Part shown: piece after piece, positions 8,431 through 55,117 of the stretch
How positions within the stretch are numbered: the first letter of the stretch is position 1
How the letters are laid out: each line of letters opens with the position of its first letter
NCBI RefSeq assembly: GCF_000687935.1
Contig: NZ_JHZZ01000001.1
Coordinates: forward strand, 3,730,001-3,794,000
DNA: 64,000 bases
From: Polaribacter sp. Hel_I_88
GTDB taxonomy: Bacteria; Bacteroidota; Bacteroidia; Flavobacteriales; Flavobacteriaceae
Direction: 5' to 3'
Program-made: the position numbers and the translations under genes
The notes under the pieces: model-generated
Databases searched by the model: none
The model's input: only the letters and a program-made list of their open reading frames with translations
What the model was told of the DNA's origin: nothing

Positions 8431-10995
8431 TTGATAAAAAAACCAGTTACATCTTTCTTTAAAGATTATTTTAAAGATTTTGAAAACTATGATGAAGTTT
8501 TAAAGTCTGATATGAAGATAAACCCTACTTGGGAAAAATTATTATCGAATTTTTCTAAATTGGGTATTAAAGAAATTACAAAAAGACAAGAAAATTTAGA
8601 TTGGTTATTGGCAGAAAATGGCGTAACCTATAATGTTTACAACGATCCCAAAGGGTTAAACAGACCTTGGAATTTAAATATAATTCCCTTTGTGATTGAT
8701 CACAAAGAATGGAAAACTTTAGAAAGAGGTTTGCAACAACGTGCACACGTTTTAGACTTGATTCTAAAAGATATTTATGGAAAAAGAGAATTGATAAAAA
8801 ATGGAATTATTCCTCATGAAATCATCTTTTCTCATCGAGGTTTTTTAAGACCTTGTGATCAAATACACTACAAAACAGCACAACAATTGTTAATGCATTC
8901 TGCAGATTTGGCAAGAGGTCCAGATGGACGAATGTGGGTTGTAAATGACAGGACTGAAGCACCCTCTGGAATTGGGTATGCTTTAGAAAATAGATTTTCT
9001 ACAAGAGAAGTTGTACCTGATTTTTTTAATGAAATTAATGTAAAACAACCTTTTGGTTTTTTTCAGGATTTTAATCAGCTCTTAATAAATGCTGCAGTAA
9101 ATAATAAAGAAAATCCGACGATTGTAATTTTAACACCAGGACCACATAATGAAACGTATTTTGAACATGCGTATTTATCTTCTTTTTTAGGGTATCCGCT
9201 AGTAAAAGGAAGCGATTTAGTTGTTAGAGATGAAAAAGTTTGGATCAAAACCTTAAAAGGATTAATTCAAGTGGATGTTATTTACAGACGTGTAGATGAT
9301 GCTTATGTAGATCCATTAGAATTAAAAGGAGATTCCTTTTTAGGCGTTGCTGGTTTGTTAAATGTTGTGAGACAGCAAAACGTAGCGATTATGAATCCTA
9401 TTGGAAGTGGTGTTTTAGAAAACCCAGGACTGATTCCGTTTATGAATTCTATTTGTAAATACTTCTTAAAAGAAGATTTACTGTTACCCCAAATTGCTTC
9501 TTGGTGGTGTGGACAAGAAAAAGAAAGAAAACATGTTTTAGAAAACATAAAAGATCTTGTTGTAAAACCTATTGATATTACCAACAGAGAGAATATTTAT
9601 TTCTGTGAATTTTTAAGTGATGTTGAAATAGCAGCTTTAAAAAAGCAAATTTTAGCAAAACCCTATCGTTTTGTGGCACAAGAAAAAATATCTTTTTCTA
9701 CAGCACCAAATCTTACCAAAGAACATTTAGAACCAAGAAAAGTTGTTTGTAGAACTTTTGCTATTGCTAAAAATGAAACTTATAGCATTATGCCTGGAGG
9801 TTTAGTTAGAGTTGCAGCAGAAAGAAAAGACATGAGAGTTTCCAATCAAAAAGGAGGCACAAGCAAAGATTTTTGGGTTACCAATAATCATAAAAAAATC
9901 AATAAAAAACTTCATAGATATCATTGGCATCACTCAACTTCTAACAATTTAACTGGTATTGAAAATTTACCAAGTAACACTGCTGAAAATTTATTTTGGT
10001 CTGGTAGATATTTAGCAAGAACGCTAATTACTGCAAGGTATATTAGAATGGTTTTAAACCAAATGAGCAATTCTGAATTTAATAAACGAGATTCAGATTC
10101 TGAAAGTTTACACATTTTATACAAATCAATAACACATTTAACATCTATTTTTCCTGGATTTACAGGTAAAAACGAAGAAAACGCATTAAAAGATCCTTTA
10201 AAGGAAATTGCTATTGTACTTTTTGATAAAACCAAAGTTGGTAGTTTAGCGCACGCACTTTCTTCTTTTAACAATTCTTATTATTCGTTAAGAAATTTAT
10301 GGTCTAAAGATATGTGGCGTGTTTATGATATGTTGCAAAAAATTTGGCGCGATTTTGAAGAAAAAGATCATCAAAATGAAAAAAAGATCATTAAATTATT
10401 AGATACTGTTATCACAAAATTAATTGCCTTTATTGGTTTAATTGAAGAAAGCATTTTAGTAGATCAAGGATTGTTGCTATATTTTATTGGTTTACAAATG
10501 GAGTTAGCAACCATGTGTATTGATAAATCTCGAGCACTTTTAGCAATTAGTTATGAGGAAGATGTAGAATATGAAATTTTAGAATCGTTATTAAATAGCC
10601 ACGAAAGTTTAAATATTTATAGATATAGTTTTAAATCTTATTTAAATGTAGAAAATGTAGTGAACCTTATTTTGTTAGATAAATCGTATTCAAGATCATT
10701 AAAATATCAATTAAACAGAATTAAAAGAGACGTATTTAAACTACCAAAAAGGAACGAAAATGCGTTGTTAACATCTGTACAAAAAGCAATTACAGAAGCT
10801 TGCGATTTAATTGAAAACGCAAAAGCAACAGGTTTAATTAAGGTTGATAAAAATGAGGTTACTAGAAAAAATCTAGAAAGTTTATTGGCTACTTTAAGTG
10901 ATAAAATTCATGATACTTCTATGTCTTTAACAGATATGTATTTTAATCATTCTGATGAACAAAAACAGTTAGTTGATCAAAACTACACACTTTAA
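8431..10995 (+). CDS. Circularly permuted ATP-grasp / alpha-E fusion protein (degenerate motifs)
   Basis: An 854-aa fusion with a CP ATP-grasp region at about 1-490 and an alpha-E region at about 511-840 (ENLFWSGRYLAR). The TTG start at 8431 is preferred because the residues between it and the first ATG (Met28) still resemble the family, and it lies 6 bp after the upstream stop. Compared with the stand-alone paralogue at 3344, NDR-TEAPSG replaces EDN-IRCPSG, RRVDD is kept, the glycine loop ESGGYG after VVKP (377-380) has become ITNREN, PRHVDLRTF has become PRKVVCRTF, and the alpha-E ER motif is GRYLAR instead of GRYLER. This suggests a non-catalytic or regulatory partner, although the fused subfamily may carry these changes generally. 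Confidence 0.88.
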   Translation: MIKKPVTSFFKDYFKDFENYDEVLKSDMKINPTWEKLLSNFSKLGIKEITKRQENLDWLLAENGVTYNVYNDPKGLNRPWNLNIIPFVIDHKEWKTLERGLQQRAHVLDLILKDIYGKRELIKNGIIPHEIIFSHRGFLRPCDQIHYKTAQQLLMHSADLARGPDGRMWVVNDRTEAPSGIGYALENRFSTREVVPDFFNEINVKQPFGFFQDFNQLLINAAVNNKENPTIVILTPGPHNETYFEHAYLSSFLGYPLVKGSDLVVRDEKVWIKTLKGLIQVDVIYRRVDDAYVDPLELKGDSFLGVAGLLNVVRQQNVAIMNPIGSGVLENPGLIPFMNSICKYFLKEDLLLPQIASWWCGQEKERKHVLENIKDLVVKPIDITNRENIYFCEFLSDVEIAALKKQILAKPYRFVAQEKISFSTAPNLTKEHLEPRKVVCRTFAIAKNETYSIMPGGLVRVAAERKDMRVSNQKGGTSKDFWVTNNHKKINKKLHRYHWHHSTSNNLTGIENLPSNTAENLFWSGRYLARTLITARYIRMVLNQMSNSEFNKRDSDSESLHILYKSITHLTSIFPGFTGKNEENALKDPLKEIAIVLFDKTKVGSLAHALSSFNNSYYSLRNLWSKDMWRVYDMLQKIWRDFEEKDHQNEKKIIKLLDTVITKLIAFIGLIEESILVDQGLLLYFIGLQMELATMCIDKSRALLAISYEEDVEYEILESLLNSHESLNIYRYSFKSYLNVENVVNLILLDKSYSRSLKYQLNRIKRDVFKLPKRNENALLTSVQKAITEACDLIENAKATGLIKVDKNEVTRKNLESLLATLSDKIHDTSMSLTDMYFNHSDEQKQLVDQNYTL

Positions 10996-10996
10996 A

Positions 10997-11890
10997 ATGA
11001 TTTTTTCAATTATACATACAACAAGTTATAAATACGACAATAATGTAACATATTGTCACAATTTAGCCATCTTAAAACCAAAAGATTTTATTGGTCAAAA
11101 ATTATTGAACTACGAATTAGAAATAACTCCAAAACCCAGTATTTTAAATGAAAATACAGATTTTTTTGGAAACGCCGTAACTCATTTTTCTATTGATAAA
11201 CAACATAAAGAACTTATTGTAACTGCTAAAAGTACAGTAGAACGCTCTTATGAAGTTCAAGAACTAAATGAAAATTTAAAAGGAGATAAACATATTACTT
11301 TAGAAAAAGCTCTTGAAAAACTAAGTACGTTTTCACCAGAAAACATAGATGCGAAACAGTTTTTATTAGATTCTGCCTTCATTAACAAAATATCGACTAC
11401 CATTAAAGAATATGCAGAAATTTCTTTTAAAAAAGAACGTTCAGTTTTTGAAGCTTCGAAAGAATTAATGAAACGTATTTTTACGGATTTTAAATTTGAT
11501 GCCCATTTTAGTACAATTGCAACTCCTATTGACGAAGTAATGAAAGAAAAAAAGGGTGTTTGCCAAGATTTTGCCCAAATTGCTATTGCTTGTATTCGAT
11601 CAATTGGTTTACCTGCCAGATACGTGAGTGGCTATATAGAAACTTTACCACCTCCTGGAAAAGAAAAATTAGTAGGAACAGATGCTTCTCATGCTTGGTT
11701 TTCTGTATTTATTCCCAATTTTGGTTGGGTAGATTTTGACCCCACAAACAATCAAGTTCCAAAAAACCAACATATTACAGTTGCATTTGGTAGAGATTAT
11801 TATGATGTACCACCATTAAAAGGTGTTATTTATGGTTCAGGAAATAGCATTATGAAAGTTTCTGTAGATATTAGACCTGCAAAAAACTAA
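10997..11890 (+). CDS. Transglutaminase family protein, stand-alone
   Basis: A 297-aa protein. The ATG at 10997, one base after the stop of the preceding gene, is preferred over an in-frame TTG at 10973, because MIFSIIHTTSYKYD is exactly where the family's N-terminal domain begins. Residues 1-90 are the bacterial transglutaminase N-terminal domain. The core has Cys189 (KGVCQDFA), His232 (DASHAWF) and Asp248 (WVDFDPT), a complete triad. Family members act as cysteine peptidases or amide-bond transferases. It is the last gene of the rightward arm of the amidoligase locus and is followed by a long terminator hairpin. It may process the product made by the ATP-grasp/DUF2126 proteins (inference). 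Confidence 0.93.
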   Translation: MIFSIIHTTSYKYDNNVTYCHNLAILKPKDFIGQKLLNYELEITPKPSILNENTDFFGNAVTHFSIDKQHKELIVTAKSTVERSYEVQELNENLKGDKHITLEKALEKLSTFSPENIDAKQFLLDSAFINKISTTIKEYAEISFKKERSVFEASKELMKRIFTDFKFDAHFSTIATPIDEVMKEKKGVCQDFAQIAIACIRSIGLPARYVSGYIETLPPPGKEKLVGTDASHAWFSVFIPNFGWVDFDPTNNQVPKNQHITVAFGRDYYDVPPLKGVIYGSGNSIMKVSVDIRPAKN

Positions 11891-14220: not shown

Positions 14221-15339
14221 TTATGCGTTTTCTGTTGTGTTTACTTCTAGTTTTGGATAATCTGTATATCCCTTAGCTCCTGTTGTATAAAATGTATCTT
14301 GATTCCAATCTGCTAATTCTTGGTTTCTTTCAAAACGTTCTACCAAATCAGGATTTGACACATACAATTTTCCAAAGGCAACTAAATCTGCAAATCCGTC
14401 TTCAATTACTTTATTTCCTGAAGCTTCATCAAAACCAGCATTGATCATTAAAGTTCCATTATATAAAGGTCTAAAATGTGCTGCAATATTTTGAACAGCA
14501 AATTTTACATCAGAAACATCATTGAAAGGTTCAGATAAATGAACGTATGCTAAGTTGTAATCATTCAATTTTTTAATGATATACTCAAAAGTAGGAATCG
14601 TTTCTTCGTCCATTTCCATCCCAAAAATTCCATGTAATGAAGGGTTGAATCTTGCTCCGATTTTTTGCTCGTGTAAAACTTCTTTTATCGCATCTAAAGT
14701 TTCAAAAAAGAAACGTGCTCTATTTTCGATACTTCCTCCATATTCATCTGTTCGTTTGTTGGAAGTTTTGTTAAAAAATTGATGAAATAAATACCCATTT
14801 GAAGAATGGATTTCTACGCCATCAAAACCAGCATCCACAGCATTTTGTGCAGCATTTTTAAAATCAGCTATTGTTCTTTTAATATCTTCTTTCGTCATTT
14901 CTTTAGGCGTAACTGTTTCTTTTTGTCCTTGAGGTGTATAAACAGTCTGATTTGCATTTAAAGCAGAAGGCGCTAAAGGCAATTCTCCATTATGAAAATC
15001 GGGATGCGAAATTCGCCCAACATGCCAAAGCTGAATAAATATTTTTCCTCCTTCATTATGCACTCTTTTGGTAACTTTTTTCCAACCTTCTACTTGCTCT
15101 TTGCTATAAATACCTGCTGTGTTTATATAACCCACAGCTTCTTTTGAAACTTGTGATCCTTCTGTAATAATTAAACCTGCAGAAGCTCTTTGCTCATAAT
15201 ATAAGCCATGCAAATCGCTGATTGGCACATTGCCCTCATTATCTGCTCTACTTCTTGTCATAGGAGCCATGACAACTCTATTTTTTAAGGGTAAGCCATC
15301 AATATTATTAAAATTTTGTAATAAAAATTCTTTCCTCAT
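14221..15339 (-). CDS. Alkene reductase, Old Yellow Enzyme family
   Basis: A 372-aa FMN-dependent oxidoreductase (TIM barrel). Visible are the N-terminal VVMAPMTRSRA segment, the FMN-contact IQLWHVGRISHP, and the substrate-binding motif GVEIHSSNGYLFHQFF with His178, Asn181 and Tyr183 (the usual H-x-x-N and catalytic Tyr), then GGSIENRARF. Members reduce activated C=C bonds and nitro-compounds with NAD(P)H. The more usual EIHGANGY is EIHSSNGY here, but the catalytic residues are intact. The length is typical of NemA-like enzymes. It is followed 11 bp later by the peroxiredoxin-like gene, which suggests a detoxification operon. Confidence 0.93.
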   Translation of the reverse strand: MRKEFLLQNFNNIDGLPLKNRVVMAPMTRSRADNEGNVPISDLHGLYYEQRASAGLIITEGSQVSKEAVGYINTAGIYSKEQVEGWKKVTKRVHNEGGKIFIQLWHVGRISHPDFHNGELPLAPSALNANQTVYTPQGQKETVTPKEMTKEDIKRTIADFKNAAQNAVDAGFDGVEIHSSNGYLFHQFFNKTSNKRTDEYGGSIENRARFFFETLDAIKEVLHEQKIGARFNPSLHGIFGMEMDEETIPTFEYIIKKLNDYNLAYVHLSEPFNDVSDVKFAVQNIAAHFRPLYNGTLMINAGFDEASGNKVIEDGFADLVAFGKLYVSNPDLVERFERNQELADWNQDTFYTTGAKGYTDYPKLEVNTTENA

Positions 15340-29365: not shown

Positions 29366-30649
29366 TTACTTTAAGGTTTCTAACCTTAAAGTAACCGCAT
29401 TTTTATGTGCTTGTAAACCTTCTGCTTCTGCCATTAATTCTATAGATTTCCCAATTGTTTGAATACCTTCTTTTGATATTTTTTGAAATGTAATACTTTT
29501 CAAAAAACTATCTAAATTTACGCCTGAATATGCTTTTGTAAATCCGTTTGTTGGCAATGTGTGATTGGTTCCTGATGCATAATCTCCTGCACTTTCTGGT
29601 GTATAATTACCAATAAAAACAGAACCTGCGTTTGCAATATTATCTACATAATAATCATTGTTATTTGTACAAACTATAAAATGTTCTGGACCATATTCGT
29701 TGATTAAATCTAACGCAATTTCATCTGTTTCAACAAATATTGATTTTGAATTGGCAATTGCTTTTTGTGCAATTTCTACTCTTGGCAGGTCTAAAATTTG
29801 TTTGTTAATTTCGGCTTCTACAGCTGTAATTAGTTTTTTTGATGTTGATACCAAAATAACTTGACTGTCAATGCCATGTTCTGCTTGGCTCAATAAATCT
29901 GAAGCTACAAAGCTTGCATTTGCAGCATTGTCTGCAACTACTAATAATTCACTTGGTCCTGCAGGCATATCAATGGCAACTCCAAATTTGGTCGCCAATT
30001 GTTTTGCAACTGTTACATATTGATTTCCTGGTCCAAATATTTTATAGACTTGTGGAATTGATTCTGTTCCAAAAGTTAATCCAGCAATTGCTTGAATTCC
30101 GCCAACTTTTATAATTTTAGTAACACCACAAAGTTTTGCTGCAAATAAAATTGCTGGATGAATTTTTCCTTTCTTGTTTGGTGGCGAACACAATACAATT
30201 TCTTTACAACCTGCAATTTGTGCAGGAATTGCCAACATTAAAACCGTTGAAAAAAGTGGTGCTGTTCCTCCAGGAATGTACAAACCAACTTTTTGAATCG
30301 GTCTTTTTTCTTGCCAACACTCAACTCCATTTGTGGTTTCTACAAAAACCTTATCCGTTTTTTGTGCGTTATGAAAAACAGTAATATTTTCATTTGCTAA
30401 AATAATTGCTTCTTTCAATTCGTTTGAAACTGCAGCAATAGCTTCTTCAATTTCAGCTTCTGAAACTACATTATTTTCTAAAGATACTCCATCAAATAAT
30501 TGCGTGTATTTCTGCACAGCTTTGTCTCCTTCTTTTTTTACTTCCGTAAAAATTTCAGTAACTGTTTGCTCAATATCATCAACTGTTTTTGTGGGTCTTT
30601 GTAAAATTTGAGACCAAGTTGATTTTGCTGGATTTATAATTGTTTTCAT
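29366..30649 (-). CDS. hisD: Histidinol dehydrogenase
   Basis: A 427-aa zinc/NAD enzyme catalysing the last two oxidations, histidinol to histidine. Signatures seen are GGTAPLFSTVLM, VDxxAGPSEL (IDMPAGPSELLVVAD), SQAEHGIDSQ (zinc-ligand Gln-x-x-His), EYGPEHFIV and the C-terminal ASGTNHTLPT. The length is standard. The start ATG at 30649 is followed by a normal family N-terminus. It is second in the operon, 358 bp after hisG; that gap is repeat-filled. Confidence 0.97.
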   Translation of the reverse strand: MKTIINPAKSTWSQILQRPTKTVDDIEQTVTEIFTEVKKEGDKAVQKYTQLFDGVSLENNVVSEAEIEEAIAAVSNELKEAIILANENITVFHNAQKTDKVFVETTNGVECWQEKRPIQKVGLYIPGGTAPLFSTVLMLAIPAQIAGCKEIVLCSPPNKKGKIHPAILFAAKLCGVTKIIKVGGIQAIAGLTFGTESIPQVYKIFGPGNQYVTVAKQLATKFGVAIDMPAGPSELLVVADNAANASFVASDLLSQAEHGIDSQVILVSTSKKLITAVEAEINKQILDLPRVEIAQKAIANSKSIFVETDEIALDLINEYGPEHFIVCTNNNDYYVDNIANAGSVFIGNYTPESAGDYASGTNHTLPTNGFTKAYSGVNLDSFLKSITFQKISKEGIQTIGKSIELMAEAEGLQAHKNAVTLRLETLK

Positions 30650-31007
30650 CTTTTTTATTTCTCCTGCAAGGTATTAAAGACCTTGTAATTATTTTAGATT
30701 TTTGATGTATACCTACAAGGTTTTAAAAACCTTGCAGAAGTCGCTATTCATTTTAAGAGGCGAGATTTGGTATAAACTAGCCATTTGCGTTAGGGATTGA
30801 AGCCTTTCGTCAAGCTCAAGACAAGCATTTGTTTGAGCTCTTTTTTCTTTTTCAGAAAAAAAGCGAGTGCTGAAAGCCCGTTAAAACGCCCAAAAAAATA
30901 TACTTTTTATTTTGAAATCAATTAGATTTCAATGTACATTTTAAATTATTTTGAACAGATCCTGAAACAAGTTCAGGATTTTATAATTTTTGAACGTTGT
31001 TCAAAAA
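30650..31007. repeat. 358-bp repeat-filled gap between hisD and hisG
   Basis: No gene is seen. It holds (i) two facing copies of a TGCAAGGT...ACCTTG hairpin, at about 30664-30690 and 30711-30740; (ii) a block from GCGTTAGGGATTGAAG (about 30786) to CCCGTTAAAACGCCC (about 30890), whose ends are inverted (GCGTT/AACGC), resembling a widespread flavobacterial intergenic element; and (iii) GATCCTGAAACAAGTTCAGG at 30958-30979, a hairpin related to the TTCTGAA pair before the LysE gene. It is unusually long for an operon gap. Confidence 0.7.
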
Positions 31008-31865
31008 CTATAAAACCATATTTTCAATAGGACACACTAAAATTCCTTGTGCACCATTGGCTTTTAGCTCATCAATAACATCCCAAAATTTATCTTTATC
31101 GATTACTGAGTGAATTGAGCTCCAACCTTTTTCTGCCAAAGGCAACACAGTTGGACTTTTCATTCCTGGTAAAATATCGATGATTTTTTCTACCTTATCA
31201 TTTGGTGCGTTTAACAATACATATTTAGATGATTTTCCTTTTAAAACCGACTGAATTCTAAACTGAATTTTCTCTAAAATGGCTTTGTTTTCTTCGGATA
31301 TTTTAGGCGAAACTGCCAAAACTGCTTCCGATTTAAACAACACCTCAATTTCTTTTAATCCGTTTTTAAACAAGGTACTTCCACTAGAAACGATATCGCA
31401 AATTCCATCTGCCAAGCCAATATTTGGGGCAATTTCCACAGAACCGTTAATAATGTGTAATTGCGCATCAATATTGTATTTTTTCAGGTATTTTTTTACG
31501 GTTTCTGGATACGAAGTTGCGATTCTTTTACCTGCTAAATCTTTTAATGAATTGGCTGTTGACTCTTTTGGAACCGCGATTGAAACCTTGCATTTCGAAA
31601 ATCCTAAACGCTCTACAAAATCGATATCTGTTCCTTTTTCAATTAAAACATTTTCGCCAATAATGGCTGCATCTACTACTCCATCTCGTAAATATTGAGG
31701 AATATCGCCATTTCTTAAATAGAAAACTTCTACTGGAAAATTTCTTGCGGATGCTTTTAATTGATCGATTCCATTATCGATAGAAATACCTATGTCTTTT
31801 AAGATTCCCATTGAATCTTCATTTAGTCTTCCTGATTTTTGTACTGCAATTCTTAAATTACTCAT
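31008..31865 (-). CDS. hisG: ATP phosphoribosyltransferase, long form
   Basis: A 285-aa enzyme that starts histidine synthesis from ATP and PRPP. The catalytic domain has MSNLRIAVQKSGRLNEDS, NGDIPQYLRDGVVDAAIIGEN and the PRPP-loop DIVSSGSTLFKNGL. The C-terminal ~75 residues (SPTVLPLAEKGWSSIHSV and onward) are the ACT-like regulatory domain of the long HisG form, so no HisZ is needed and feedback by histidine is expected. It is the first structural gene of the leftward operon, preceded by a His-rich leader peptide and terminator. Confidence 0.97.
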   Translation of the reverse strand: MSNLRIAVQKSGRLNEDSMGILKDIGISIDNGIDQLKASARNFPVEVFYLRNGDIPQYLRDGVVDAAIIGENVLIEKGTDIDFVERLGFSKCKVSIAVPKESTANSLKDLAGKRIATSYPETVKKYLKKYNIDAQLHIINGSVEIAPNIGLADGICDIVSSGSTLFKNGLKEIEVLFKSEAVLAVSPKISEENKAILEKIQFRIQSVLKGKSSKYVLLNAPNDKVEKIIDILPGMKSPTVLPLAEKGWSSIHSVIDKDKFWDVIDELKANGAQGILVCPIENMVL

Positions 31866-31947
31866 TATATTATTTAATAAATTACTAATTCCTTTATTTG
31901 ATCCTGATAATCATCAGGATTATTCTTATTGCTTTTTTTTAAAAGCA

Positions 31948-31987
31948 TTAAAAATAAAAAACCTGTTTGATTTGCTCAAACAGGTTT
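31948..31987 (-). terminator. Attenuator terminator of the his operon
   Basis: On the minus strand a 12-bp perfect stem (AAACCTGTTTGA with TCAAACAGGTTT, loop GCAAA) is followed by TTTTTATTTTT. It sits between the His-rich leader peptide and hisG. This is the arrangement of a transcription attenuator. A competing antiterminator stem was not clearly identified by eye. Confidence 0.85.
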
Positions 31988-32017
31988 ATAAATATCTTGA
32001 CTTTATTCAATACATTT

Positions 32018-32074
32018 TTAAATCGCTTGATGGCAATTGTAAAAATGATGATGATGATTTTGAATAAATTTCAT
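32018..32074 (-). CDS. hisL: His-operon leader peptide, 18 aa
   Basis: A minus-strand frame from ATG (32072-32074) to TAA (32018-32020) encodes MKFIQNHHHHFYNCHQAI: five of 18 residues are histidine, four of them consecutive (CAT codons). It lies 31 nt before a strong terminator and about 150 nt before hisG. This is the classical design of ribosome-mediated attenuation: histidine shortage stalls the ribosome on the His codons and prevents the terminator from forming. A TTTGGAAT (about 32118-32125) and a GATATTTG (32092-32099) form a poor but possible promoter just upstream. Flavobacterial his leaders may not be captured by enterobacterial leader models. Confidence 0.85.
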   Translation of the reverse strand: MKFIQNHHHHFYNCHQAI

Positions 32075-32296
32075 GTCTTTTTTTAATTATACAAATATCC
32101 AAATTTTATTTTGATTATTCCAAATGATGAACCTAAAAATTTTGTTAAACTGAAATATTTATCAAAATTTGAGTTTTTGTTTAATTTTTATTGTTCGTAA
32201 AATAGAAAGAGTGTTTTTCCTGTTGATTATTTGGTAAGAAAACTCGAACTTAGCTGAGTCTCGATATAACGAATTAAAACTTGATATATACGTTAA

Positions 32297-32305
32297 GTTG
32301 GCAAA
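32297..32305 (+). repeat. Cassette left core GTTGGCAAA
   Basis: It lies 12 nt before the ATG of the 129-aa gene and is the exact inverted complement of TTTGCCAAC (32716-32724) just after that gene. It is preceded by TATATACG, a remnant of the attC-like half-site. Confidence 0.7.
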
Positions 32306-32317
32306 CATTTACAAAAA

Positions 32318-32707
32318 ATGAGAATACGATACAAAAAGAAACAAGTAAATCTGAATTTATATTTAGGCATAATATGGTTTGCGAATGGAATTGTGCAAAC
32401 TGTATTTAATGAAAACTCAAGTTGGTTTGACTATTTCTGGTTTTTATTGTCAGGAACTTATTTGATAATTTACTTTTATCAGAAAAAGGAAAAATATCTG
32501 ACTGTTGAAAACGGAATTATAAAGCAGAATTGGCCTTTAGGAAAGAAAATGAAACTTAATGAAATAAAACGAATTAAGCATTTTGCTGGAGAGTATATTC
32601 TTAAATCGGAATTAAAGAAAATGAAAATCAATATTAGTTTAATAGAAGAAGAATCTTTGTCTGAATTAAAATCGGAATTGAAAAAACTAAATGTTGAGTG
32701 GAATTAA
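32318..32707 (+). CDS. Small membrane protein with PH-like domain, in cassette-like unit
   Basis: A 129-aa protein with two hydrophobic segments in the first half (LYLGIIWFANGIVQTVF and FWFLLSGTYLIIYFY) and a basic, beta-strand-rich C-terminal half (EKYLTVENGIIKQNWPLGKK, KRIKHFAGEYILKSE, KINISLIEEESL). This order resembles bacterial PH-domain (bPH_2-like) membrane proteins. The function is unknown. It is bracketed by the inverted cores GTTGGCAAA and TTTGCCAAC and followed by a 136-bp attC-like site that matches one at 51.7 kb, so it looks like a mobile cassette inserted between the his leader and ttcA. It carries no promoter of its own that can be seen. Confidence 0.6.
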   Translation: MRIRYKKKQVNLNLYLGIIWFANGIVQTVFNENSSWFDYFWFLLSGTYLIIYFYQKKEKYLTVENGIIKQNWPLGKKMKLNEIKRIKHFAGEYILKSELKKMKINISLIEEESLSELKSELKKLNVEWN

Positions 32708-32715
32708 AAAAAAGA

Positions 32716-32851
32716 TTTGCCAACACCATATATAATTTATTGCTGGCTTCTTACCTACTTACGAAAATCCTATCGGATTTTCTATGTCAGTAATTATTTA
32801 TTAAATTAGTTGCTTAAACCACGCAACAAACCATATATAAACACGTTAGCG
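32716..32851 (+). repeat. attC-like imperfect inverted repeat, site A
   Basis: It begins TTTGCCAACACCATATATAA and ends ATATATAAACACGTTAGC. Arms pair as GCCAAC/GTTAGC, then ATATATAA against its complement, TTGCT.../...GCAAC, with unequal bulges, and a tip GAAAATCC-TATC-GGATTTTC. It is nearly identical over its left two thirds to the site at 51706-51840. This architecture is like integron attC, but the core is GTTGGC/GTTAGC rather than GTTRRRY. Confidence 0.75.
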
Positions 32852-32959
32852 AACCTATACAAAAACTAAAATCCAAGCAACAACCTAAACCAATTTTAAC
32901 TAAAAACCAGTTAACTTATTTTCTTTTATTTTTTCTGAAATTATAGTTCTAAAAACTAC

Positions 32960-48970: not shown

Positions 48971-49109
48971 TTTAGTTTGTTTTTCACATCATTAAAACGT
49001 ACATTTAAAATTATTTATATTAATTATCTTTAAATTGATAACAGTAACTAAAAATATTTTATCACGTTAAATTTACGGGATATGTGTAATAAAAGTTACT
49101 ATATAACGA

Positions 49110-49119
49110 GTTATGTGGC
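49110..49119 (+). repeat. Cassette left core GTTATGTGGC
   Basis: It is the exact inverted complement of GCCACATAAC (50737-50746) at the other end of the same gene. It is preceded by ACTATATAACGA, part of an attC-like half-site. Confidence 0.7.
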
Positions 49120-49134
49120 ATTTGAACAAAAACT

Positions 49135-50745
49135 ATGAAAATAACATTACCAACTAAAAAGGGAAATCCAAATACTAACCCTGAAATTGAATTTGAACAA
49201 ATTGTAGTCATTGGTGCAAACGGTTCAGGAAAGACAAGATTTGGTTCAAATATTGAAGAAAGATATAATAACAAAACACACAGAATATCAGCTCAAAAAT
49301 CTTTATCACTACCCAATTATGTTGGTACCAAATCTAAAGAAGTTGCTTATTCCGAATTCAGATATGGAGGTTGGAATGCAGACAATCCAGAATGGAACCG
49401 AAATCACGGTTGGAAAAACCAACGATGGAGTAATAATTTAAATACATCTTTATTAAATGATTACGATAAGCTTATGGTTCTATTACATACCGAAGAATAT
49501 GAGCAATCGTTACTTTATAAGGAAACTGGAGGTGTAAAACCAAACACTAAACTTGATAGAATTCAATCAATTTTTGAAGCTGTCCTACCTCATAGGAAAA
49601 TCATAAAAAAAGCTGGTGTAATAGAAACTTATCCAACAAACGGACAAATATCAGATGCTTATAACGCTTCCGAAATGAGTGACGGAGAAAGAGTAATTTT
49701 TTATATGGTTGGAGAAGTAATATGTTCAATAGAAAATGCCATTATCGTAATAGACGAACCCGAAATGCATATTCACAAGTCTTTAATTAAAAAATTATTT
49801 GATTTAATTGAAAACGAAAGACAAGATTGCGTATTTGTTTATTTAACACACGATATAGATTTTGCTTTTACAAGACAAAATGCTACTAAAATTTGGGCAA
49901 AATCCTACGAAGGAAATTCTATTTGGGATTATGAATTATTAGACGAGAATATGCCTATTCCAGAACAACTATACTTGGATGTTTTGGGAAGTAGAAAACC
50001 CGTAATTTTTATCGAAGGTGACCAAAGTAGTATTGATTATCAGTTATATGAGCAAGTTTTTTATGAAAACACACTAAAACCATTAGGAAGCTGTGACAAA
50101 GTAATACAAACAGTTAAGGCATTTAACGAACAAAATAGTTTTCATCATATTGAATCTAATGGTATTATTGACAGAGATAGACGGCAAAACGATGATATTA
50201 TTAGATTAAATTCTAAACAAGTTTGGGTACTTGACGTTGCAGAAGCGGAAAACCTACTCTTGATTGAAACAGTTGTCAAATCAATAGCATCACATATGGG
50301 AGAAAATCCTGTACAAGTTTTTGACCAAGTAAAACAAAACGTAATAGATTTTTTTTCATCTCAAATAGAAAATCAGATTCTTATCCATTTTCAAGAACAA
50401 TTGAGACGAGAGATGATTAATGCTTCGAGTTTCAGTAAAAAAGAAATAGGCACTGTAATAACTGAAATTGACACATCTTACTCAAATATTGACAAGCAAA
50501 ATATTTTTGATAAAATCAAGACCGAATTTGAGGAAATTTTAAATAATTCGGATTATGAAGGTATACTACGAGTATTCAACCTTAAAAATGCAATCATTCC
50601 TGAATCAAAAGTCTGTTCTTTAATTAAATTAAACAATAGAGAATCATATTTGAAATTGGTTATTACACTACTAAAAAAACGTAATACAATAAGTGAGGAA
50701 ATAGCAAATGATATTGAAAGTAAAATAATAAAAAACGCCACATAA
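49135..50745 (+). CDS. AAA ATPase fused to DUF4435/TOPRIM-like domain (PARIS-like candidate)
   Basis: A 536-aa protein. The ATPase half (1-270) has Walker A GANGSGKT (27-34), the ABC-type signature SDGER (182-186), Walker B IVIDEPE (Asp207, Glu208) and the H-loop LTHD. The second half (about 285-400) has FIEGD (Glu294), GIIDRDRR (Asp346, Asp348) and AEAENLL (Glu372), the acidic pattern of DUF4435/TOPRIM. AriA (AAA15 ATPase) and AriB (DUF4435) of the PARIS anti-phage system have these two activities, sometimes fused; 536 aa is short for a full fusion, so this is a relative at most. The stop codon lies inside the attC-like core, and the unit is bracketed by GTTATGTGGC and its complement. Confidence 0.7.
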   Translation: MKITLPTKKGNPNTNPEIEFEQIVVIGANGSGKTRFGSNIEERYNNKTHRISAQKSLSLPNYVGTKSKEVAYSEFRYGGWNADNPEWNRNHGWKNQRWSNNLNTSLLNDYDKLMVLLHTEEYEQSLLYKETGGVKPNTKLDRIQSIFEAVLPHRKIIKKAGVIETYPTNGQISDAYNASEMSDGERVIFYMVGEVICSIENAIIVIDEPEMHIHKSLIKKLFDLIENERQDCVFVYLTHDIDFAFTRQNATKIWAKSYEGNSIWDYELLDENMPIPEQLYLDVLGSRKPVIFIEGDQSSIDYQLYEQVFYENTLKPLGSCDKVIQTVKAFNEQNSFHHIESNGIIDRDRRQNDDIIRLNSKQVWVLDVAEAENLLLIETVVKSIASHMGENPVQVFDQVKQNVIDFFSSQIENQILIHFQEQLRREMINASSFSKKEIGTVITEIDTSYSNIDKQNIFDKIKTEFEEILNNSDYEGILRVFNLKNAIIPESKVCSLIKLNNRESYLKLVITLLKKRNTISEEIANDIESKIIKNAT

Positions 50746-50873
50746 CACCGTATATAAGCTATGGCTTGGTCTGTCCATATTTGGAAAATCTACGGATTTC
50801 CCAAAGTTAGTTTATATTTGGAGAGGTCTGTGCCAAAACACGCCACAGCTCATATACAAACACGTTGGCACAA
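50737..50873 (+). repeat. attC-like imperfect inverted repeat, site B
   Basis: It runs from GCCACATAACACCGTATATA to CATATACAAACACGTTGGCA. Arms pair as AACACCGTATATAAGCT with AGCTCATATACAAACACGTT, then GGC and CTGT/ACAG blocks with an extra CGTGTT bulge on one side, and a tip GGAAAATC-TACG-GATTTCC. The right end is the left core (GTTGGCACAA) of the next cassette. Confidence 0.78.
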
Positions 50874-50875
50874 AT

Positions 50876-51700
50876 ATGAAAAAACAATTCCTGATAATAA
50901 TTACTTTATTAATTTCAACTTTTACCTTTGCTTGTAGTTGTGAAATTCCAAAACCAATTCTTGAATTTAAATCAGCCGACTATGTTTTTAAGGGAAAAGT
51001 CGTATCTAAAGTTTATGCAATCGATTCTTTAAATTATACAGTAACATTTGAGGTTTTTGAACACTATAAAAAGGGGAAAAAACCAAAAAGGTTGGAATTT
51101 ACTTTTTCATCTGAAGGAGAATATACAGGAGAATTTACATCTTGTGACTGGCACGTAAACAAAAATGAAAAATGGCTTGTTTATGCCTACTATTCGAATA
51201 AGAAACTAACTTTTAGTTATTATTGTTCAAACTCTAAACGAATAGATAATTGGAATATTTCAAAAAATGAACAACGAATTTTAGATTACGGAAATTCATT
51301 TAAGTTAGAAAATTACATTTATCAATTTGAAAGCGGATTTAATATTACAAAGCCAATTGCAAATATTGATTCTATTTTTAAAAACGGGAAAATTAAGAAT
51401 TATACAAATCCATACACTTGGCTAGAATTATTTATAGATAAAAAAGGAAATCTTAATTTTGTTACAGCAGGTTTGAATTATGAGTTTAAAGCTGATTCAA
51501 TTTATAACTTGAAGACAGAGTTTAAAATAAAATTAAAAAAGCAAGTGACTGAATTCGAAAAAGATGCAATGGAATTAATAAGAAAAATGCCAAAATGGGA
51601 AATAAAAAGGCATATAAAAAGTAATATTCCTGTATCACAAATTTGTCATTTAATAATTCAATTTGACAAAGAAAAAAAAGAATGGAGTTACGAATTATAA
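50876..51700 (+). CDS. Exported protein with NTR/TIMP-like N-terminal CxC, in cassette-like unit
   Basis: A 274-aa protein with a signal peptide (MKKQFLIIITLLISTFTFA) followed directly by CSCEIPKP, the Cys-x-Cys start of NTR/TIMP-like domains, and SADYVFKGKVVSKVY, the first strand of that fold. Cysteines later in the chain (SCDWH, YCSNS) could form disulfides. The C-terminal ~80 residues (YTWLELFIDKKGNLNFV, MELIRKMPKWEI) resemble the TonB-C-like tail of many Bacteroidota envelope proteins. The function is unknown. It is bracketed by GTTGGCACAA (50864-50873) and TTGTGCCAAC (51706-51715), which are exact inverted complements. Confidence 0.65.
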   Translation: MKKQFLIIITLLISTFTFACSCEIPKPILEFKSADYVFKGKVVSKVYAIDSLNYTVTFEVFEHYKKGKKPKRLEFTFSSEGEYTGEFTSCDWHVNKNEKWLVYAYYSNKKLTFSYYCSNSKRIDNWNISKNEQRILDYGNSFKLENYIYQFESGFNITKPIANIDSIFKNGKIKNYTNPYTWLELFIDKKGNLNFVTAGLNYEFKADSIYNLKTEFKIKLKKQVTEFEKDAMELIRKMPKWEIKRHIKSNIPVSQICHLIIQFDKEKKEWSYEL

Positions 51701-51705
51701 AATAC

Positions 51706-51840
51706 TTGTGCCAACACCATATATAATTTATTGCTAGCTTTTTGCTTACTTACGAAAATCCTCGCGTATTTTCTTTGTCCTTAATTATTTAGTAAATTTA
51801 TTGCTAAACCACGCAACTAACCTTGCACAAAACCGCTAGC
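51706..51840 (+). repeat. attC-like imperfect inverted repeat, site C
   Basis: It begins TTGTGCCAACACCATATATA, has a tip GAAAATCC-TCGC-GTATTTTC and a right arm ACCACGCAACTAACC, ending CCGCTAGC. It closely matches site A at 32716 over the left arm and tip, but the right end has diverged. Confidence 0.75.
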
Positions 51841-51848
51841 AAATATTT

Positions 51849-52586
51849 ATGAAAAAAACGATTATAATAATTATAATTATTCTAGGGAATTTTATTTCTT
51901 TTAAATCATATTCTCAAAATACTAGTTATATAATAACTTCGTCAAATGATACAATTAACATAAGTAGATTTGATATTTTGAACAGAAGTATAAAAGTGAA
52001 AATTAATAAAAAGAAAAAAAAATATAATTATAAAGATATAATTGCAATATATGACTTTAAGAAAAAAATGTTTCTTGAAAAAATAACTCCAAAAAATGTA
52101 GAGTATAAAGACTCTTATGGAGAAACCTTCTTTGCTGAAAGACTAACAAATGGAAAAATATTGATTTACAAATATTTAACAAATAGATCTCACTCTCATC
52201 TATCAGCTCCTAACGCTGAAAAAAAAATAAATTATATTGAAGGAAATAATCCAAAAGGGAGTAATATTACTGTTCCATTTGTAAAAAGAGGTAATACTGA
52301 CAGATTTGGACGTAGCTCATCTATTGGAAAAACCTATTCTTCTGGAAGTAGTAGAAGTTTTTTTTCTTATTATATAGGAATTAAAGGTTTTAAACAAAAA
52401 TTACTATGCTATAATGAGATACAGATGACAAAAAATACACACAAAATATTAAACTCATATTTAAAAGATAACAATATTATACGTTTGGCACTTGAAGACC
52501 TTTTCTTTTCTGAAGAAGAAGTTAAAGAAAGTTCAATAATTGAATTAGTTAATAAATATAATGAACAGATGCCAAAAAGGAAATAA
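51849..52586 (+). CDS. Exported protein of unknown function, in cassette-like unit
   Basis: A 245-aa protein with a clear signal peptide (MKKTIIIIIIILGNFISF, SYSQ cleavage). The mature part is Lys/Ser-rich, with a low-complexity KINKKKKKYNYKDI segment, a Ser-rich region (GRSSSIGKTYSSGSSRSFFS) and no recognised domain. The last ~60 residues look helical. It begins 9 nt after the CGCTAGC core of site C and ends next to AGCCAAC at 52591-52597, so it is the third cassette of the array; its left and right cores agree only partly. Its base composition is a little more AT-rich than the neighbours. Confidence 0.6.
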   Translation: MKKTIIIIIIILGNFISFKSYSQNTSYIITSSNDTINISRFDILNRSIKVKINKKKKKYNYKDIIAIYDFKKKMFLEKITPKNVEYKDSYGETFFAERLTNGKILIYKYLTNRSHSHLSAPNAEKKINYIEGNNPKGSNITVPFVKRGNTDRFGRSSSIGKTYSSGSSRSFFSYYIGIKGFKQKLLCYNEIQMTKNTHKILNSYLKDNNIIRLALEDLFFSEEEVKESSIIELVNKYNEQMPKRK

Positions 52587-52683
52587 CATTAGCCAACATC
52601 CCAATATGATAAATAAAAATTCTAAGAATAAGATTTATAAATTCTTAAAAATTTGAGAACATTTTTAATTTTTTCTATCATTT
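52587..52683 (+). repeat. Truncated right end of the cassette array
   Basis: AGCCAACATCCCAATATGAT (52591) starts like an attC-like left arm but the inverted half is missing. This probably marks the junction of the array with the core genome. Confidence 0.5.
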
Positions 52684-52990: not shown

Positions 52991-53090
52991 TTAAGGTTTA
53001 AAGTTTAAAGTTTAAAGTTTAAAAATATTGATTTTCAATTCAAAACTCTGAACTCTGAACTCTGAACTCTGAACTCTGAACTCTGAACTT
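52991..53090. repeat. Two tandem heptamer repeat tracts before recF's end
   Basis: About four copies of a 7-bp AAGTTTA-type unit (52993-53022) are followed, after 20 bp, by six exact copies of AACTCTG (53044-53085) plus a partial seventh. They fill the gap between recF and the DUF721 gene. A shorter relative of the AACTCTG tract is at 55085-55117. Confidence 0.9.
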
Positions 53091-55056: not shown

Positions 55057-55117
55057 GAGTTAAGAGTTATGAATTAAGAGTAAAAACTCTGAACTCTGTG
55101 CTCTAAACTCTGAACTT
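55057..55117. repeat. AACTCTG-type repeats before ribH
   Basis: GAGTTAAGAGTTATGAATTAAGAG is followed by facing AACTCTG units (55085-55117). It is a shorter relative of the tract at 53044. Confidence 0.7.

Follow-up and report, generated by a model that had tools for sequence, protein, structure and literature searches.

An off-array block of three gene cassettes in Polaribacter sp. Hel_I_88 points to a chromosomal integron-like gene-capture system in Flavobacteriaceae

In a 64,000-nucleotide stretch of the Polaribacter sp. Hel_I_88 chromosome (hereafter the window; GCF_000687935.1, contig NZ_JHZZ01000001.1, positions 3,730,001 to 3,794,000), three genes on one strand are separated by imperfect inverted repeats that resemble the attC sites of integrons. 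An original prediction, made from the window alone, had proposed that these genes form an integron-cassette-like array. Analysis of the whole chromosome and of related genomes shows that the block is a satellite of a 38-cassette array on the same chromosome. Positions below refer to the window, unless they are prefixed C1 or described as chromosomal. The block comprises the following features:

49079..49109, + strand: secondary attI-like sequence GATATGTGTAATAAAAGTTACTATATAACGA, directly 5' of cassette 1
49110..50743, + strand: cassette 1, start GTT-ATGTGGC, end GCCACAT-AAC, own bracket 7/7
49135..50745, + strand: cassette 1 gene, a fused AriAB-like (PARIS defence) ATPase plus DUF4435 (PADLOC, Pfam)
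50744..50866, + strand: attC-like site of cassette 1 (site B), covariance model R1, 99.5 bits, E 4e-17 (in the R1 training set)
50864..51712, + strand: cassette 2, start GTT-GGCACAA, end TTGTGCC-AAC, own bracket 7/7
50876..51700, + strand: cassette 2 gene, a 274-aa protein with an N-terminal signal-like segment
51713..51837, + strand: attC-like site of cassette 2 (site C), R1, 104.2 bits, E 4e-18 (likewise in the training set)
51835..52594, + strand: cassette 3, degenerate bracket 5/7
51849..52586, + strand: cassette 3 gene, a 245-aa protein, family not assigned
52595..52620, + strand: left remnant (AAC...) of the last attC-like site, right half missing (from sequence)

Exact inverted core copies had been predicted around the first two genes, and they are present (GTTATGTGGC at 49110 and GCCACATAAC at 50737; GTTGGCACAA at 50864 and TTGTGCCAAC at 51706). 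The third pair had been described as partial and indeed is so (by eye, GCT-AGCAAAT at 51835 and ATTAGCC-AAC at 52588-52597), and the right end of site C reads GCT in place of GTT. The predicted core, GTTGGC/GCCAAC, did not hold and was rejected: only GTT/AAC is conserved, G or A usually follows GTT, and GTTGGC is simply one of the cassette-specific forms taken by GTT plus seven variable bases (GTT-N7). Sites B and C (123-125 bp) belong to a family with 33 other members in the genome, and a scan of the window at Rfam gathering thresholds gave no match. The stop codon of the cassette 1 gene lies inside the AAC end.

The window was correctly described as holding no integrase; the recombinase gene lies elsewhere on the chromosome, at C1:847723-848886. 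It encodes a 387-aa tyrosine recombinase and stands directly upstream of the main array, in which 38 cassettes occupy 46 kb of one strand (chromosomal positions 848914 to 895161, approximately 0.85-0.90 Mb) and the longest open reading frame is on the array strand in 36 of the 38. The site family is concentrated in this region, at 849-895 kb. The first cassette begins 27 nt past the recombinase stop codon, after the attI-like TTTATATAACGA; this main attI (C1:848905-848916) ends in ATATAACGA|GTT, and the element at 49079-49109 has the same end. The array consists of co-oriented, mostly single-gene cassettes, with an attI adjoining the integrase gene where, by sequence comparison, cassettes appear to enter.

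The same layout occurs in Polaribacter sp. Hel1_85, P. marinus, P. filamentus, P. glomeratus and Tenacibaculum aquimarinum. Of 20 loci read in other genera, 19 show it, and one is a contig end without sites; at these loci all 171 model-detected sites lie downstream of the recombinase on the same strand. In most of the other genera, the array start derived from the first site coincides with a conserved ATATAACnA|GTT (loci L034 and L035 have diverged), and in most genomes the attI-like site lies 26-50 nt after the recombinase gene. AT-rich repeats (TATACTACTATATTTATCAATATATACTAC, TATACTAGTATATTG) were also observed upstream of the recombinase gene (L009:17300-17420), and may be operator or recombinase-binding sites.

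Each cassette opens with GTT-N7-A; at its other end, the same N7 appears as its reverse complement, before a closing AAC. Within the main array, 196 of 224 N7 positions obey this own-bracket rule, against a permuted mean of 86 (standard deviation 8.4, maximum 117, 10,000 permutations); the bracket matches at five or more of seven positions in all 38 cassettes, and the N7 of neighbouring cassettes do not match across a site. Arrays of 20 other genera gave 907 matches in 987 positions, against 369 when permuted (standard deviation 17). Chance brackets are ruled out by the permutations in both sets. Moreover, the rule foretold extra sites in gaps, where divergent sites missed by the first search were found. 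Such a pattern is expected of a cassette circle, in which start and end would derive from one attC cut within GTT on insertion. The R boxes of classical attC sites (RYYYAAC/GTTRRRY) are not a feature of this array, since GTTRRRY is found at 8% of the 38 cassette starts.

Single-strand folding, which had been proposed as a check, gave hairpins with a favoured bottom strand. For 34 sites, the RNAalifold consensus is -8.8 kcal/mol for the top strand and -19.0 kcal/mol for the bottom strand, with conserved G.U pairs. This gap arises because the mismatches in the top-strand stem are nearly all A.C, with very few G.T, and become G.T wobbles on the bottom strand. Two fixed stem positions carry A.C mismatches in 33/34 and 34/34 sites of this genome, and in 143 and 123 of 167 sites of the 20 other genera, and the eighth base after GTT is in an A.C pair in 129/156 cassettes. 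In the circular form, the bottom strand also folds better (mean -26.8 vs -21.1 kcal/mol, z -5.4 vs -3.8); for site B, the corresponding DNA folds are -30.7 kcal/mol (bottom) and -23.8 kcal/mol (top). The wobble pattern and the folding energies therefore suggest that the folded bottom strand is selected and, as with classical attC, that this single strand is the substrate.

Comparison with the closest relative (G443), whose main-array flanks are 85-91% identical, shows precise cassette mobility. The left homology stops exactly at chromosomal position 848916, the last base of the attI GTT; G443 has ATATAACCA|GTT at the matching place, followed by a cassette. Between the conserved flanks only one cassette type is common, present once here and six times in G443. 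In the 16-kb main array of G443 (L118), a short cassette of 434 bp plus its site, with no clear open reading frame, is present six times, with one copy at the attI position. The original prediction had called for a strain comparison of whole-unit exchange, and such an exchange is seen at the window locus, where G443 holds a different single cassette, from its reading a thioredoxin-like gene, between the same flanks after TATATAATAA|GTT; homology picks up again at 52671, past the attC-like remnant. Vertical gene order was rejected as an account of the locus, the junction beside DUF721/recF differing in nearly all relatives.

Exact copies are also present within the genome. An identical 815-bp sequence is found in cassettes 5 and 33, which lie in different contexts, and cassette 34 has a 100% identical copy at 2.92 Mb, the match spanning 558 bp from GTT to GTT. 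The latter copy, 2 Mb away, stands behind a secondary attI-like site. Such sites (GATATRYGTAATAAAAGTTATTATATAACGA or a near match) number five in this genome and nine in G443, and each of the 14 precedes GTT-N7 (GCT in one case). All five in this genome head a cassette; for some of those in G443, no far end was found within the stretch read. From their sequence, the secondary sites look like integrase-less satellite platforms.

The catalytic R-K-HxxR-H-Y residues are invariant in the array recombinases. The enzyme of this genome scores 211.6 bits against TIGR02249, the integron integrase (IntI) model, below the cut-off of 265. The additional (I2) domain of IntI is absent from 20/20 aligned array recombinases, and the spacing across its position is 65 residues in 16/16 array recombinases measured vs 107 in 10 IntI. 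A tree of 68 sequences has a supported branch (99/96) that separates XerA, XerC and XerD from a group made up of IntI, the array recombinases and the relatives of the latter; outgroup sampling was limited, relatives were chosen by similarity, and the three-way order of IntI, the f23 recombinases and the Flavobacteriaceae recombinases is left unsettled by this tree. The grouping with IntI implies that the system is a relative of integrons and not an unrelated invention. A structure predicted from eight sequences was of moderate quality (predicted local distance difference test, pLDDT, 69) and was used for closest-fold comparison alone, in which XerA came first and IntI second. The N-terminal 80 residues make up a small domain (pLDDT 90). 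In fold, it is closest to the HARP substrate-recognition domain of SMARCAL1 (4o66, E 0.07, probability 0.91), with XPB next; Pfam HARP matches 3/20 recombinases, at best 7.3e-5 and below the curated cut-off. These matches are no more than suggestive of a HARP-like N-terminal domain, which might help to recognise the hairpin.

The sites are not unique to this genome. A covariance-model search of flavobacterial genomes, proposed at the outset, covered 199 Flavobacteriaceae genomes, one for each genus, and found them in 176; the recombinase was found in 125 of the 199 at a threshold of 1e-40. A co-occurring tyrosine recombinase had likewise been sought, and this one is present in 124/176 genomes with sites vs 1/23 without (Fisher p 6e-10, not corrected for kinship), as well as heading the arrays. 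Phylum-wide, 55 of 247 Bacteroidota genomes have sites at 1e-5, and the family reaches other classes of Bacteroidota. In f23 (another class), a related, shorter recombinase is divergent from the array, which is the classical layout; in f8 and in Flavobacteriaceae, the recombinase is co-oriented with the array, unlike the divergent integrase that is usual, although not universal, in IntI integrons.

Overall, these comparisons of the site family, the own-bracket rule, polarity, recombinase linkage, the wobble pattern, exact copies and turnover suggest, with a probability of roughly 0.85, that the window block is a small off-array part of a chromosomal integron-like gene-capture system. The system appears to be widespread in marine Flavobacteriaceae and to work like an integron, while lacking two features that define the IntI type. 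Each cassette would be one presumably promoterless gene followed by its attC. The recombinase at C1:847723-848886 most likely joins the folded bottom single strand of the attC-like hairpins to the double-stranded attI-like ATATAACnA|GTT, and may occasionally use dispersed attI-like sites, such as 49079-49109. Strand exchange is placed within GTT, at an exact position that is presumed, and as a result a cassette would carry its own GTT-N7 start and N7'-AAC end, and these two would base-pair only once the cassette is excised as a circle. The mechanism is probably the same folded-strand route as in integrons.

Several points weigh against this reading. Recombination, including attI x attC catalysis, is deduced from sequence, as are the assignment of this recombinase as the enzyme and its action on single strands; two defining features of IntI integrons (the I2 domain with the score above the cut-off, and the GTTRRRY core) are lacking; 52 of the 176 site-bearing genomes have no recombinase match at 1e-40, possibly owing to assembly gaps or integrase-less arrays; and related recombinases are also found on plasmids and phages.

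The best-surviving alternative, although improbable, is that the arrays change by ordinary homologous recombination between repeated sites and that the recombinase is an unrelated neighbour. The sites are repeated and similar enough to recombine, and duplicated cassettes are present, but this would leave unexplained the linkage and orientation of the recombinase, the breakpoint at attI, the own-bracket rule and the wobble-coded strand bias. Marginally less probable still is a classical IntI-type integron, or a cluster of attC sites lacking integron integrases (CALIN) served by a true IntI elsewhere in the genome. The layout and the attC-like folding are integron-like, and true IntI occurs in 70/247 Bacteroidota genomes; however, none was detected at 1e-60 in this genome or in approximately 27 Flavobacteriaceae genomes of the 247-genome sample, and the recombinase score, the spacing and the scarcity of GTTRRRY argue against it. 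A classical integron in the strict sense was rejected because the insert is absent, the NCBIfam cut-off is missed and the core differs. The least likely explanation is that the units are transposon-like elements mobilised by a transposase in trans (resembling miniature inverted-repeat or repetitive extragenic palindromic elements) with the N7 arms as terminal inverted repeats since, although every gene has inverted repeats of its own on either side and off-array copies exist, the arms differ entirely between units, orientation is constant relative to one tyrosine recombinase (171/171), insertion is beside a fixed attI, and boundaries run from GTT to GTT with no obvious target duplications.

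An integron-like gene-capture system thus best fits the bracket rule, the attI-like start, the recombinase linkage and the turnover, and the predicted integron-cassette-like array is supported. The further proposal of a Bacteroidota cassette system distinct from class 1-3 integrons is supported, with the correction that its recombinase groups with IntI; the missing insert and the core set it apart. The nearest known systems are sedentary chromosomal integrons, which share a co-oriented array of single-gene cassettes, a platform beside a tyrosine recombinase, folded bottom-strand attC, a G|TT/AAC crossover triplet, duplicated and shuffled cassettes, and cargo including defence genes and a Cass2-family gene. 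In contrast to these, the flavobacterial recombinase has no additional domain and falls below the IntI cut-off, the core is GTT-N7 with a cassette-specific, self-complementary N7 instead of GTTRRRY, the recombinase is co-oriented in Flavobacteriaceae, strand asymmetry comes from G.T wobbles, and attI-like sites are dispersed. XerA, XerC and XerD have the same catalytic-core domain size and catalytic residues and no insert, but lie across the supported branch and have no attC array. A more specific proposal, to which slightly less than even odds are given, is that a sister or basal branch of integron integrases recombines folded single-stranded attC hairpins without I2, with the active strand coded by G.T wobbles and, in Flavobacteriaceae, with an N-terminal HARP-like domain that would bind structured DNA in place of the insert.

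The prevailing view is that acquisition of the I2 helix gave integron integrases their single-strand recombination; since IntI1 is inactive once I2 is deleted, this view lacks direct proof (PMC7790495). A natural enzyme without the insert, apparently acting on folded bottom-strand sites, makes this question directly testable; if the reading is true, the single-strand reaction arose before the insert to which its origin is attributed, or can do without it, and the integrons most widespread in marine Bacteroidota have gone unnoticed. The tyrosine-recombinase survey of Smyshlyaev et al. (2021) notes incomplete conservation of the insert among integron-like enzymes, and the parts of that survey that concern its 'integron-like' subgroup do not connect it with flavobacterial attC-like arrays or attI (PMC8138268). 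The IntegronFinder 2.0 survey lists, for Bacteroidetes proper, only In0 elements and one Salinibacter integron, and reports no integrons in Flavobacteriaceae (PMC9024848). A search of the open-access literature turned up no earlier account of the chromosomal system, of its recombinase or of its attI, although one may exist outside it.

Sites of Polaribacter phage P12002L were published as an ordinary integron CALIN, and the relevant sections of that paper report that IntI1 recombined the bottom strand of one of them, attC2, whereas its top strand gave no recombinants (PMC9892861). The phage shares R1 matches in its methyltransferase-gene stretch, with the own-bracket rule visible by eye. Family sites and bracketed methyltransferase genes lie at 14503-14624 and 30009-32924 of the phage (L191), which is a possible vehicle for cassettes. 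Plasmids CP116298 and CP116296 of the fish-associated Tenacibaculum finnmarkense carry attC-like sites 95% and 84% identical, respectively, to an array site of this genome.

The cargo is diverse. The cassette 1 protein matches PADLOC AriAB at 1.5e-130 over residues 2-531, and Pfam assigns AAA_21 and DUF4435; by sequence, it is classed as a fusion of the AriA ATPase and the AriB DUF4435 nuclease of PARIS. The cassette 2 protein has no Pfam match, and its gene has a DNA relative (73%) at C1:2971384-2971850. In the main array, cassette 17 encodes a CBASS cyclase and cassette 24 a Cass2-family protein, a family named for integron cassettes; others encode a TonB receptor, redox enzymes and many proteins without known family. 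Flavobacteriaceae have a large stock of cassettes, anti-phage genes among them (PARIS, CBASS cyclase), and search models from this site family are usable for finding the system elsewhere.

One further cassette lies in the window, apart from the block and without a secondary attI-like element before it:

32297..32847, + strand: single cassette, start GTT-GGCAAAC at 32297
32318-32707, + strand: its 129-aa gene
32722-32847, + strand: its attC-like site, R1, 125.5 bits, E 1.9e-22

Tandem 7-mer runs (GAACTCT, AAAGTTT) occur at 53000-53090 and 55060-55116, beside DUF721/recF and downstream. In several genera, an insertion sequence, IS3-like by reading and carrying orfA (152 aa) and orfB (257 aa), lies approximately 15-20 nt inside the cassette start after the attC GTT, always in the same orientation (L012:885-2207 and after 5161; L015; L034:14142-15584; L029, two copies; L127), and seems to target attC-like sites. 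At 2.92 Mb, two near-identical transposase-bearing insertions (L014:7735-9303 and 10314-11882) interrupt attC-like sites and leave CAACAAA|CACACC at the left half of the site.

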